Made by a program: the position numbers and the translations under genes. Under the pieces are notes generated by a model. It saw nothing but the letters and a program-made list of their open reading frames with translations. It was not told the DNA's origin and did no database searches. From Runella slithyformis DSM 19594 (lineage in GTDB: Bacteria > Bacteroidota > Bacteroidia > Cytophagales > Spirosomataceae), in contig NC_015703.1 in assembly GCF_000218895.1 (NCBI RefSeq), positions 805,501 to 869,500 of the forward strand: 64,000 nucleotides of DNA, in the 5' to 3' direction. This document shows positions 4,726 through 56,360 of this stretch, in pieces. How positions within the stretch are numbered: position 1 is the stretch's first letter; every line of letters begins with the position of its first letter.

Positions 4726-4778
4726 TATCCTATCCTATCCTATCCTATCCTATCCTATCCTATCCTATCCTATCCTAT
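4726..4778 (+). repeat. Pentanucleotide microsatellite (TATCC)10
   Basis: Ten perfect TATCC units (4726-4775) and a partial TAT lie 66 bases upstream of the LuxR-type gene at 4844. An in-frame TAA directly precedes that gene's ATG, so the array is not translated with it. Slippage would alter promoter or operator spacing in 5-bp steps (half a helical turn). That is the classic layout of transcriptional phase variation, but this role is inferred. Confidence 0.95.
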
Positions 4779-4843: not shown

Positions 4844-5146
4844 ATGATTAACTGCATGACAGCCAAACAAAACTCAGATTATTTAGAAAAATTGAACCGC
4901 TTGGATCAATCCCTCCTCCGTGAAAACGTAGAACTTACCCGGCAAGAGCTAAAGGTGCTTTATTGGGCGATAGAAGGGAAAACAAATGAAGAAATAGCCG
5001 AAGAACTTGACCGACATCTTTGTACGATCAAGACCCACAAAAACAACCTTATTGCAAAGCTAAATCTAAAAGGAAGAATAGAATTTCAAAAATATGTGCT
5101 GAAAATGATGAAATCTCATACTTTGGGTGGAGAAAAATCCATCTAA
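4844..5146 (+). CDS. Stand-alone LuxR/GerE-type HTH transcriptional regulator
   Basis: A 100-residue protein. The helix-turn-helix spans about residues 31-85, starting LTRQELKVLYWAIEG and followed by TNEEIAEEL and the recognition segment TIKTHKNNLIAKL, the GerE/LuxR_C pattern. No receiver or ligand-binding domain is present; the first 30 residues could form a short helix. It would bind DNA, probably as a dimer. An alternative ATG at 4856 would drop four residues. It is followed by its own terminator and then by a lipoprotein gene on the same strand. The upstream pentanucleotide array suggests switchable expression. Confidence 0.88.
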   Translation: MINCMTAKQNSDYLEKLNRLDQSLLRENVELTRQELKVLYWAIEGKTNEEIAEELDRHLCTIKTHKNNLIAKLNLKGRIEFQKYVLKMMKSHTLGGEKSI

Positions 5147-13633: not shown

Positions 13634-13704
13634 AGTGCTTAGATTTAACCTTCTCTTTCCTTTTGTAGAAAAACAATCACTGTTATCTGCTTTTGCGTCC
13701 GCCC

Positions 13705-15556
13705 ATGCAACGATTCCTGTTTCTGCTTCTTATTCCTGTCTCGGCTTTAGTGAATGCCCAAAAAACCGCTGCCAAGCCCAACGTGATCTACATCTTTGCC
13801 GATGATCTGGGCTACGGTGAATTGGGTTGTTACGGACAAAAAAAGATAAAAACACCCCATCTGGACCGCCTGGCGGCGGGCGGAATGCGTTTTACCCAAC
13901 ACTACGCTTCGGCACCCGTATGCGCCCCCTCCCGCTGTGGGCTCATGACAGGCCGACATACCGGGCATACGTACATTCGGGGAAATTATGAACTGGGGGG
14001 CTTTGAAGATGACAAAGAAGGCGGCCAAATGCCGCTTCACGAAGGGGCTTTTACATTGGGACATCTCTTCCAACAGGCCGGCTACAAAACGGGAGCCGTG
14101 GGCAAATGGGGCATGGGCATGGCCAATACCACCGGCAATCCCAACCTGCAAGGCTTTGATTTCTTTTACGGCCTGCTGTGCCAGAAACAATCCCATAACT
14201 TTTATCCTACTCATTTGTGGAAAAACGGCGAGAAAGTACCGCTCAATAATCCCTTCATCCGCGTCCACCGGCCGATGCCCGAAGGCGACGAAAACTACGA
14301 CTACTACACCGGCAAGGAATACGCCATTGACAAAATGACCGAGGAAGCGACGGGTTTTATTACCGAAAATAAAAATACCCCTTTCTTTCTGTACCTGCCT
14401 TATACCCTACCCCACCTCTCGTTGCAGGCACCACCCGAAGCCGTTAAAGAATACCTCGGGCGGTTTGAGGACAAACCCTATCGGGGCCAAAATGGCTACG
14501 CTTCCACCCGTTATCAATACGCCACCTACGCGGCGATGATCTCGTATTTGGACAAACAGGTGGGTATTATTTGGGAGTTGCTGAAAAAATCAGGGCTGGA
14601 AGAAAATACTCTCATCATGTTCTCCAGCGACAACGGCGCTACTTTTGACAAAGCCGTGGATACTAAGTTCTTTGAAAGCAACGGTCCCCTGCGCGGAGTG
14701 AAGCGAGACGTGTATGAAGGCGGCATCCGAATGCCGATGATCGCGTATTGGAAGAATAAAATCAAGCCGGGACAAACCACCGACCACGTATCGGCACAAT
14801 ACGACGTCATGGCTACCTGTGCCGAATTGCTCGGAATGGGCGTTACGTCCACCCAACCCACGAACAAAAGGGCAGACGTAGGGGTGGGCTTCACGTCCAC
14901 CCAATCCACGAACAAAAGGGCAGACGTAGGGGTGGGCTTCACGTCCACCCAATCCACGAACAAAAGGGCAGACGTAGGGGTGGGCTTCACGTCCACCCAA
15001 TCCACGAACAAAAGGGCAGACGTAGGGTGGGCTTCACGTCCACCAACCCACGAACAAAAGGGCAGACGTAGGGGTGGGCGTTACGTCCACCCAACCCACG
15101 AACAAAAGGGCAGACGTAGGGGTGGGCGTTACGTCCACCCAATCCACGAACAAAAGGGCAGACGTAGGGGTGGGCGTTACGTCCACCCAACCCACGAACA
15201 AAAGGGCAGACGTAAAGCCTGCCCCTACGACCGATGGCATTTCTTTCCTGCCGACGTTGCTCAACAAGGGCACCCAAAAACAACACGATTTCCTTTATTT
15301 TGAATTTCCCGAAAACGGCGGTCAACTGGCTATCCGCATCGGAAAATGGAAAGGTGTAAAACGTAATATGAAAAACAACCCCAACGCGGTTTGGGAAGTA
15401 TACGATTTAACAACCGACCTAGGCGAGCAAAACAACCTGGCAGCACAACATCCCGAGTTTATTCCGCAGTTTGAAGCCATCGTCAAGCGCGAGCACCGCC
15501 CCTCTCACTTACAGGAGTGGGAGTTTGTCGACCCTAAATTTGAAGTAAAGAAATAA
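13705..15556 (+). pseudogene. Secreted sulfatase carrying an internal repeat array and a frameshift
   Basis: The 5' part encodes a signal peptide (to about Ala18), metal-site FADDLGYGE (Asp33, Asp34), the formylglycine motif CAPSR (Cys73 to Arg77), KWGMGMA, and FSSDNGA. After VMATCAELLG the frame enters eight 16-codon repeats of the type TSTQPTNKRADV. The fifth unit is 46 rather than 48 bases, so the starting frame is lost and runs to a stop at 15303. The true sulfatase C-terminus (TTDGISFLPTLL, then YFEFPENGGQLAIR and WEVYDLTTDLGE) continues in the other frame to 15556. Restoring two bases would give one 617-residue protein. It may be a genuine pseudogene, a switchable gene, or a sequencing error in the repeat. 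A TTG at 13693 is an alternative start. Confidence 0.85.
14837..15228 (+). repeat. Coding tandem array of 48-bp units derived from a palindromic repeat
   Basis: There are eight near-identical units ending at 14880, 14928, 14976, 15024, 15070, 15118, 15166 and 15214. Units are 48 bases, except the first (44, left-truncated) and the fifth (46, two single-base losses). Variants alternate GGGCTTCACG with GGGCGTTACG, and CAATCC with CAACCC. Each unit start (GTAGGGGTGGGC...) pairs imperfectly with the terminal GACGTAAAGCCTGCCCCTAC, about 20 of 25 positions. The terminal part differs from the reverse complement of the intergenic repeat at 56149 in two positions. So a palindromic intergenic-type repeat has entered a coding region and expanded. 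Confidence 0.95.
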
Positions 15557-54499: not shown

Positions 54500-56152
54500 A
54501 TGAAACACCTTCGCAAACTCGCCTTAGCCGCCGTTTGTATGCTTGGCATAGGATTCTTTGCCTTCCGTACCGACGAACGTTTTTTTGAAATCGCCCGTAA
54601 CCTCGACATTTACGCTACGCTGTTCAAGGAGCTGAATCGGTATTACGTAGACGAGATCAACCCCAATCGGTTGACCAAAATGAGCATTGAATCCATGCTC
54701 AAAAACCTCGACCCTTACACCAATTTTTACGCCGAAGACGAAATCGAAGATTACCGTACCATGACCACGGGCCAGTACACGGGCATCGGGGCCATCATTA
54801 CGACCAATAAAGGCAAGAACATCGTTTACTCCATTCTGGAAGGCTCTCCCGCCGAAAAAGCGGGAATCCACATCGGCGATGAGATCGTAAAGATCGACGG
54901 TGTAGACCTCACCACCCGCAAGGATGCCAATCCCGATAAACTCATGAAAGGACAGGCCAACTCAACCGTCAAGCTGGCGGTACGGCGCGTGGGCAGCCCT
55001 TCGCTCATCGAAATGAGCGTTACCCGGGAGTTTGTCAAAACGGGCAATGTGCCTTACTACGGCATGCTCACCGACGAAGTCGGCTACATCGACTTGAAAG
55101 ATTTTAACCAAACCGCCGCGCGCGAAGTCAAAACGGCCTTGGTGGAACTGAAAGGAAAAGGCATGAAAAAGCTGGTGTTGGACGTACGCGAAAACCCGGG
55201 CGGATTGCTGGATCAGGCGGTGTTGATCTGTAACCTGTTTATTCCCAAAGATGCGGAAGTGGTTTCCAACAAAGGAAAAGTGACGGAGTGGAACAAAACC
55301 TACACCGCACCCATGGCTCCCGTTGATACCGAGATTCCGTTGGTGGTATTGGTCAACGGCCGCAGTGCTTCGGCCTCCGAGATTGTTTCGGGCGTGATTC
55401 AGGATTATGACCGCGGCGTGTTGATCGGTCAGCGTACCTACGGCAAAGGATTGGTGCAAACCACGCGTGATCTGTCGTACAATACGAAACTGAAAGTAAC
55501 CGTTGCCAAATACTACATACCGAGCGGCCGCTGCATTCAGGCGATTGATTACAGCCACCGCAATGCCGACGGCAGCGTGGGCAAAATTCCCGATTCCCTC
55601 AAAGTAGCCTTTAAAACCCGCAACGGTCGCACCGTCTACGACGGCGGTGGTGTAGAGCCGGATGTTCCGACCGATCTGGTCAGTCGTACGCCTATTGTGA
55701 ACAGTCTGAATAGCAAAGGACTATTCTTTGACTATGCGCTCAAGTACCGCGCCGACCACCCCGCGATCAAACCCGCGAAAGACTTTGAACTCAGCGATGC
55801 CGATTATCAGGGTTTTGTGAATTGGCTGAAAGACAAAGAGTATGATTACACCACTCAGGTAGAAAAAGACCTCAGCGAGCTGGAGGCTTCGGCCCGAAAA
55901 GAGAAATATTTTGATGCTATTCAGGAACAGTTCAAGGCCTTGAAAACTAAGCTGACCCACAGCAAAGACACCGATTTGGTGCTGTTCAAAAAAGACATCA
56001 AACAGGTATTGGAGCGTGAGATCGTATCCCATGTGTACCTGCAAAAAGGTGAGCGCGAATTTGTGTTCCGCACCGACCCGGAAGTGAAAGCCGCTCTGGA
56101 TCTTTTCAAAGACATGCCTCGCTACGAAAAAATCCTGAAAGGCACCAAGTAG
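54500..56152 (+). CDS. C-terminal processing protease (S41, CtpA/Prc family)
   Basis: A 550-residue protease with an N-terminal signal anchor (residues 7-22), so it is periplasmic. The PDZ domain (about 90-170) has GIGAIITTNKGKNIVYSILEG. The S41 catalytic domain has the serine in RSASASE (288-294) and Lys316 in TYGKGLVQ. A helical C-terminal region follows (about 400-550). It degrades or trims proteins from exposed C-termini. The stop codon TAG is contributed by a palindromic repeat that starts at 56149. Confidence 0.95.
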   Translation: MKHLRKLALAAVCMLGIGFFAFRTDERFFEIARNLDIYATLFKELNRYYVDEINPNRLTKMSIESMLKNLDPYTNFYAEDEIEDYRTMTTGQYTGIGAIITTNKGKNIVYSILEGSPAEKAGIHIGDEIVKIDGVDLTTRKDANPDKLMKGQANSTVKLAVRRVGSPSLIEMSVTREFVKTGNVPYYGMLTDEVGYIDLKDFNQTAAREVKTALVELKGKGMKKLVLDVRENPGGLLDQAVLICNLFIPKDAEVVSNKGKVTEWNKTYTAPMAPVDTEIPLVVLVNGRSASASEIVSGVIQDYDRGVLIGQRTYGKGLVQTTRDLSYNTKLKVTVAKYYIPSGRCIQAIDYSHRNADGSVGKIPDSLKVAFKTRNGRTVYDGGGVEPDVPTDLVSRTPIVNSLNSKGLFFDYALKYRADHPAIKPAKDFELSDADYQGFVNWLKDKEYDYTTQVEKDLSELEASARKEKYFDAIQEQFKALKTKLTHSKDTDLVLFKKDIKQVLEREIVSHVYLQKGEREFVFRTDPEVKAALDLFKDMPRYEKILKGTK

Positions 56153-56277
56153 GGGCAGGCCTTGCGTCTGCCCTCGCATCACGTCGAAGCATATTTTTAG
56201 GTTTATGTAAAATGAATATTACGTAGGGGCAGGCCTTGCGTCTACCGTGGTTAGGGCAGACGCAAGGCCTGCCCTAA
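56149..56277. repeat. Three copies of the GTAGGGGCAGGC palindromic repeat
   Basis: Copy 1 is at 56149-56173, copy 2 at 56223-56246 and an inverted copy at about 56251-56277. Copies 2 and 3 form a stem. Copy 1 supplies the stop codon of the CtpA gene. The core GTAGGGGCAGGCCTTGCGTC is closely related to the array inside the sulfatase gene at 14837-15228. Confidence 0.9.
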
Positions 56278-56360
56278 CTCTTTTTTGATAAATTCGGGTG
56301 AATTTTTAAGGAATCAATATAATGATTACATCGAAAATCACCCTTCGAAAATCAACTATT

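Follow-up and report, generated by a model that had tools for sequence, protein, structure and literature searches.

How does a palindrome that is scattered between genes come to encode a repeated segment of a protein? This question is raised by a sulfatase gene of Runella that is interrupted by a tandem array of eight units, each built around a palindromic REP element. The gene lies in a 64,000-nucleotide stretch of DNA, hereafter called the window, that corresponds to C4:805501-869500 in a genome of 6,919,729 bases and 6 contigs. An earlier note on this DNA had proposed that an intergenic palindrome was captured by the gene and then expanded. We now find this proposal well supported by a genome-wide REP family, by empty sites in nine of ten same-genus orthologues, by a one-unit gene in a tenth (genome G010), and by three further in-frame REPs. 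Very probably, a REP pair was captured in a Runella ancestor and expanded to eight units in the lineage of the window.

Layout of the sulfatase locus

Tandem Repeats Finder, applied to the window, reports an array at 14837-15214 with a period of 48, 7.9 copies, and 96% matches. The eight near-identical 48-bp units of the earlier note are thus present as an array, but unit 5 is only 46 nt long and the first unit lacks a GTAGGG head. The distances between units, in order, are 48, 48, 48, 48, 46, 48, and 48 nt. When compared to the empty site of orthologous genes, the array is a 376-nt insert between GGAATG and AAGCCT. The features of the locus are as follows.

13705-14838, + strand: sulfatase signal peptide and catalytic body (PF00884, E = 1.6e-58; orthologues 83-90% identical; ATG at 13705 assigned by orthologue alignment)
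14839-15214, + strand: 376-nt insert relative to the orthologue empty site, made of eight units, of which one has 46 nt and the others 48 nt, except that 6 nt are missing from the first
14878-14902, + strand: first full TGG-type REP (model R1; full copies overall score 39.8-40.3 bits)
14926-14950, 14974-14998, 15068-15092, 15116-15140, and 15164-15188, + strand: further full TGG-type REP copies (model R1)
15024-15069, + strand: unit 5, 46 nt, with a G missing in the 5' arm and a C missing in the 3' arm; origin of the frame break
15022-15045, + strand: REP of unit 5 (26.2 bits)
15204-15228, - strand: terminal CAG-type REP in opposite orientation, which closes a head-to-head pair (44.1 bits)
15215-15556, + strand: native C-terminal part of the sulfatase in the original frame (KPAPTTDGISFLP...EVKK)
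15301-15303, + strand: stop codon met by the upstream frame owing to the 46-nt unit

The Pfam Sulfatase domain (PF00884) spans residues 29-382 of the ORF at 13693-15303, and the body carries a motif that we take to be the Cys-type CxPSR motif. Downstream, the ORF at 15074-15556 has a weak match to SGSH_C (20.4 bits, under the 29.3 cut-off). The array falls between the two, in agreement with its earlier placement between the catalytic body and a C-terminal subdomain. The last bases of the terminal REP overlie native K-P-A codons (K-P in the orthologues).

The 48-nt unit is open in frame 0 and reads V-G-V-G-F-T-S-T-Q-S-T-N-K-R-A-D. If unit 5 were 48 nt long, then the insert would amount to 126 codons. 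An in-frame gene would by calculation encode 617 residues, compared to 532 for the truncated product when counted from the ATG at 13705. As sequenced, the insert leaves a remainder of one when divided by three, and therefore the upstream frame departs from the native one within unit 5 and runs to a stop at 15303, leaving the native C-terminus in a different frame. The earlier claim that the units leave the frame unchanged consequently fails for the array as a whole. The native C-terminal part is intact in its original frame, with no internal stop. On folding, the hairpin of unit 5 is still paired (7 pairs) despite both losses.

A GTAG-tagged REP family in the genome and the genus

The family element is 25 nt long and consists of GTAG, an 8-bp stem, and a 5-nt loop. 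The GTAG tag is unpaired in the folds of both single REPs that were examined. It also begins all 13 REP variants that we aligned, although these were chosen among GTAGGGG matches and the tag is therefore a condition of their selection. The variants were picked by hand from 73 stretches matching GTAGGGG on both strands (unrelated ones included), long-loop forms were excluded, and one variant that folded badly (GTAGGGGCGGGGCTTGACTCTACCC) was swapped for another. Because of this selection, the following values overstate how well the whole family pairs: 97.1% of stem cells are paired, the covariation score is 0.285 (0.117 for shuffled and at most 0.170 for slid alignments), and three of the eight stem pairs show two-sided changes. 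Two of the five covariation measures do not exceed their controls, namely the number of stem pairs changed on both sides (reached by 64 of 500 shuffles) and the number of further pair types (by 499 of 500). The TGG/CCA stem of the array is a two-sided change from the commoner CAG/CTG stem.

A covariance model of the REP gave at least 122 matches at E <= 1 in the window's own genome, with 150 of 3,875 first-look candidates scored and all listed matches on chromosome C4. According to gene calls from a home-made hexamer caller, 88 of these reside between genes, 21 supply the TAG stop codon of a neighboring gene, and 13 reside in ORFs. Two of the last group were dropped, one at 2228469 in a spurious ORF of 41 residues and one at 4616389 in a signal-peptide region with a doubtful start. 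The genome-wide division into coding and intergenic copies, by which the earlier proposal can be judged, is thus 11 credible coding REPs and 111 taken as outside genes. Eight of the 11 belong to the sulfatase array, and three other genes have one each.

The array was also said to resemble other palindromic repeats of the genome, and exact matching bears this out: GTAGGGGCAGGC occurs 59 times, compared to 0 for a reversed control. Allowing up to two mismatches, the window has 14 occurrences, 7 of them in the array, versus 3.1 expected, and none of 100 shuffles reaches 14.

Of the 111 non-coding copies, 43 have the GTAG head no more than 6 nt from the 3' end of a gene, and three have the tail there. 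Random placement of 111 REPs, a set that includes the array copy at 820704 and omits 4616389 without changing the observed count of 43, gave a mean of 6.0 near gene 3' ends and a maximum of 13 in 1,000 trials, with the qualification that copies within one cluster are not independent. The window itself provides an example in the following intergenic cluster.

56149-56173, + strand: intergenic REP of the same family as the array
56223-56247, + strand: second intergenic REP, degenerate (29.3 bits)
56254-56278, - strand: third intergenic REP in opposite orientation, which closes a pair (28.9 bits)

The upstream gene terminates at the TAG at 56150-56152, inside the first of these elements; by the home-made gene calls, such use occurs here and at 20 other places (21 of the 111 non-coding copies). 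The two-base difference reported earlier between the end of the array and this element is confirmed, with GACGTAAAGCC in the array corresponding to GACGCAAGGCC in the reverse complement of the REP at 56149.

Tandem repetition is common near these elements. Among 69 REP regions examined, we found 21 distinct intergenic tandem arrays that overlap a REP and one such array in a gene. The intergenic arrays have periods of 8 to 112, of which four are divisible by three, and the copy number is three or more in nine and fewer than three in 12. Fragments of a REP arm seem to expand as 8-nt arrays at two places beside a REP: C4:1256218-1256366 (GGGCGATT, 18.6 copies at 100%) and C4:1864768-1864870 (GGGCAGAC, 13.1 copies at 95%). 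Separately, TATCC is repeated 10.6 times without a mismatch at 4726-4778 of the window, upstream of a 100-residue ORF (4844-5146) that by eye resembles a LuxR-type HTH protein, and the spacing set by this repeat is possibly phase-variable.

Within the taxonomic family, the exact element pattern is present in 8 of 200 genomes; seven of these are among the 13 of the genus, counting the own genome, and the eighth has a single copy. Controls gave 0. The covariance model at E <= 0.01 detects 1 to 119 copies in nine of the 13 genus genomes (own included) and none in four. A TGG-type REP hairpin followed by AA also appears once each in contigs of a Clostridiaceae MAG (L279:2947) and a Deltaproteobacteria MAG (L280:597).

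Taken by its structure, the element has its tag outside the stem and a stem and loop in the ranges of GTAG-tagged REPs (5-13 bp and 2-20 nt). Its copies are dispersed and mostly extragenic, and they form head-to-head dimers, as in the sulfatase gene of G010 (L058) and a DUF255 gene of genome G004.

We did not find an IS200/RAYT-type transposase flanked by the REP of the array in the eight Y1_Tnp regions of the own genome at the threshold used; these regions contain one weak REP match (15.7 bits), and by eye several are close to repeats or palindromes of other kinds. This REP may have had a RAYT that diverged or was lost. In one Y1_Tnp ORF (C4:1233723-1234064; L086, L205), the reading frame continues upstream across a tandem array of a different repeat (RPGKEQARQRVHASQ...), which gives a putative repeat-coded N-terminal extension.

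The insertion site in related genomes

Sulfatase orthologues with 83-90% identity are encoded by 10 genomes of the same genus, from which the best matches of G008 and G012 (47% and 64% identical) were excluded. When these orthologues are compared for presence of the insert, nine of the ten have an empty site that reads G-x-K-P-x-x-x-T-D-G, in which the first G is N or R in G009 and G011. The tenth, from the Runella MAG G010, carries exactly one 65-nt head-to-head REP pair in frame, with a net gain of 48 nt, and its gene is open over the full length. By comparison, the eight-unit array of the window is out of frame as sequenced.

The order of the G010 pair is GGT, GTAGGGGTGGGCTTTATGTCCACCC, a 15-nt spacer, GGGCCGACGTAAAGCCTGTCCCTAC, and then GACCGATGG. 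Where the pair ends, it covers the codons for the conserved K-P of the protein. The first GTA of this pair and the GTA ahead of AAGCC are exactly 48 nt apart, and a GTA-to-GTA duplication gives the junction GACGTAGGGG, as is present between the units of the array. In G009, the native DNA at the insertion site (GTGAAACCTGCC) resembles the end of a REP, which suggests that short homology may have been involved in the insertion.

Among solved protein structures, 7ana is the closest by sequence, and its alignment crosses the insertion site with a one-residue gap. Length therefore seems to be free at this position, which is probably a surface loop. A structure model of the one-unit sulfatase was poor (mean pLDDT 56.2), with insert residues 379-402 among the lowest and most of the C-terminal part below 50. 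A reading based on this fold was dropped for that reason.

The frame break and its possible explanations

If the frame break had inactivated the gene long ago, then the C-terminal part should have decayed, yet no pseudogene signal was seen in a dN comparison: this part evolves no faster in the window than in relatives with an unbroken gene. Its dN/dS is 0.032 relative to G010 and 0.034-0.036 relative to G001, G004, and G006, with 0.018-0.027 for the body. Relative to the outgroup G009, the values are 0.084 for the C-terminal part and 0.027 for the body. The C-terminal dN to G009 amounts to 0.171 in the window, compared to 0.196-0.205 in the four relatives with an unbroken gene. To G011 the corresponding values are 0.097 and 0.074-0.098, and to G005 they are 0.219 and 0.215-0.231. 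Again relative to G009, the window has a ratio of C-terminal to body dN of 2.66, and the four relatives range from 3.92 to 4.28. Because the C-terminal part is undecayed, the frame shift is recent, is reversible by loss of a unit, or is a sequence error; dS is near or past saturation, which makes any timing of the shift coarse.

Among these readings, an error in the assembly consensus is a serious candidate, although we would not call it probable. The true array would then be in frame. Two single-base losses, in a G run and a C run and one per arm of a single hairpin, occur in the middle of an array that is 96% identical, and the coding sequence on either side is undamaged and under constraint. 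However, the hairpin stays paired after both losses, and a real event could have left the same result.

Somewhat unlikely is that a frame-breaking expansion killed the gene and that we see a pseudogene on its way out. As sequenced, the upstream frame does end at 15303 with the C-terminal part lost, and the same genome has a paralogue (L067) whose body is 65% identical. Nevertheless, the lack of an internal stop, the low dN/dS, and an excess of C-terminal change that is equally found in relatives with an unbroken gene count against decay. By the dN comparison a real frame shift would be recent, to the extent that near-saturated dS permits such timing.

More doubtful still is a reversible switch, in which recombination adds or drops the 46-nt unit and thereby turns the full-length sulfatase off or on. 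The arithmetic permits it: without the whole 46-nt unit the insert has 330 nt and is in frame, whereas without a 48-nt unit it has 328 nt and is out of frame. Dropping the odd unit would thus restore the frame if such an event takes place, and the numbers of units across species (0, 1, and 8) are in keeping with gain and loss. In opposition, no second genome with a 46-nt unit was seen, and there is no known reason for switching a sulfatase.

Probable origin and expansion of the array

Comparison of empty and occupied sites indicates that a 65-nt head-to-head pair of GTAG-tagged REPs (GTAG...CTAC) entered a length-variable K-P-x-x-x-T-D-G stretch and added 48 nt in frame. This pair was then multiplied to eight units in the lineage of the window. 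Most likely, two GTA triplets, observed at a spacing of 48 nt, served as the sites of slippage or unequal recombination. Because the triplets are separated by this distance within the pair, both the period of the array and its frame neutrality would come from the geometry of the pair itself. Indeed, one short direct repeat could account for both, and also for a return to the empty site. Judging from the alignments, the protein most likely tolerates the insert without benefiting from it. As the sequence stands, unit 5 has since lost a G and a C, which places the C-terminal part out of frame. The occurrence of 0, 1, and 8 units in different species and the 21 other REP-overlapping arrays suggest that the copy number is likely unstable. 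On a more speculative note, REP pairs might act as self-timed generators of in-frame protein repeats, as their GTA spacing is a whole number of codons, and an odd unit of 46 nt might turn such a repeat into an on/off switch for an enzyme. We regard this broader idea as improbable.

When the pair was acquired is a question for the trees. A four-gene tree from 5,478 sites (G004 without its DUF255 part, G008 without its sulfatase and DUF255 parts, and G012 without its sulfatase part) gives G000,(G010,(G004,(G001,G006))) with support of 100/92/99, in which G000 is the genome of the window. On this tree, one insertion before the split of G000 and one loss in the G004/G001/G006 group is the simplest history. 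When only the sulfatase is used, G011 also falls in that clade, with support of 84. Counting against a single ancestral insertion is that it would require this later loss and, with G011 so placed in the sulfatase tree, one more.

The pair might have been gained separately in G010 and in the lineage of the window, or passed by local gene conversion, rather than inherited from a common ancestor. We consider this possible but rather unlikely. G010 does group with genomes that lack the pair (G001, G004, and G006). Of 15 sites at which G010 agrees with G000 against these three, three lie about 25-28 nt before the insertion, and one more uncounted site (CTCGG versus GTCGG) lies a few bases before it. 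The remaining 12, however, are scattered upstream over the gene, as expected if a basal G010 keeps ancestral bases, and none of the 15 is behind the insertion. We have not adopted gene conversion into G010 as an explanation; the diagnostic sites do not decide this matter. Capture in a Runella ancestor, followed by expansion in one lineage, continues to be our preferred reading.

REP elements in other genes

Single in-frame REPs are found in three other genes of the own genome, whose names were assigned by reading their sequences: an esterase-like gene (RADARPAPT), a DUF255/YyaL-like gene (RAEASPAPT), and an E2 acyltransferase gene, where the REP lies in the linker (AGAGLASAQ). None of the 12 other genomes has the esterase REP. 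At its place, the orthologues L220 (G008) and L218 (G009) have other simple repeats (CAGTTTACAGTTCGCAGT-like and CTCACTCCTCACT-like, respectively), as if this stretch collects intergenic repeats.

The DUF255 gene occurs in several states. A whole head-to-head pair is in frame in G004 (VGAGFTSAQTVGGMGASPAPT), the right half of the pair is present in the genome of the window, and an apparent degenerate left half was recognized by reading in G001, G006, and G010 (in G001, it agrees with the REP at 20 of 27 letters). The G004 locus (G004:C1:330591-332722; L236, L238) also shows DUF255 matches in two overlapping frames, with a break more than 200 nt beyond the in-frame pair. The E2 REP is common to G001, G004, G006, and G010, and by eye G004 and G006 seemingly have extra degenerate copies of the REP tail.

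That the sulfatase repeats are a native, selected protein repeat whose likeness to REPs is convergent, as the open frame of the 48-nt unit might suggest, is almost certainly wrong and was rejected because of the REP ends and the empty sites in same-genus orthologues, and it is further contradicted by the full REP at the end of the array (44.1 bits), by paired changes in the stem, and by the like peptides RADARPAPT and RAEASPAPT that REPs encode in two unrelated proteins.

Comparison with known systems

Several aspects of this locus have precedents. The accessible text of PMC3733652 describes GTAG-tagged REPs that form dimers, are used as stop codons, and are intragenic in several species, as well as REP clusters that encode 43-82 residues in Thauera and R. 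conorii. Like the Runella element, these GTAG REPs have an unpaired GTAG end and a short stem and form head-to-head dimers, and they are mostly situated beyond gene 3' ends, with TAG as a stop, and sometimes in frame within genes. By the same text, the Runella case differs in its 376-nt insert and in having empty, one-unit, and eight-unit states in one genus. Runella is absent from the main text of that paper. According to the accessible part of PMC12306157, ribosomes of E. coli can be stalled by REPs that lie no more than 15 nt from a stop codon.

The earlier note compared the array to Rickettsia palindromic elements. The comparison is apt in principle, in that available descriptions of those elements also place a palindrome in frame within genes of unrelated function. 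However, the rickettsial REPs in the accessible text of PMC3733652 (including RPE-4 and RPE-6 matches) are CGTC-tagged while the Runella element is GTAG-tagged, and it is by this tag alone that we set them apart.

BIMEs and RAYT-REP units, as presented in the accessible portion of PMC2817692, resemble the array in having oppositely oriented REPs close together and tandemly repeated. Unlike these, the Runella array resides in a gene, and no REP-flanked RAYT was found in its own genome. Likewise, PARCEL repeats (PMC2996958, accessible text) are tandem, in frame, and encoded by DNA with dyad symmetry. PARCEL is there a 25-residue protein motif found over distant taxa, in contrast to the Runella peptide, which looks like a by-product of a DNA element.

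In the literature searched, we found no description of Runella REPs and met no series of 0, 1, and 8 units at one codon. Going by the accessible text of PMC3733652, intragenic GTAG-tagged REPs and coding REP clusters are already published; what this locus offers is an unusually clear 0/1/8 series.

Implications

In-frame REP insertions have so far been described mainly as lists of positions. Here, a single genus holds an empty site, a founder pair, and an eight-fold expansion at the same codons, and one position of the DUF255 gene is occupied, depending on the genome, by the complete pair, by its right half, or by what is probably its left half. The path from a mobile intergenic palindrome to a protein repeat can thus be traced in Runella, and its consequences for copy number and reading frame are testable.
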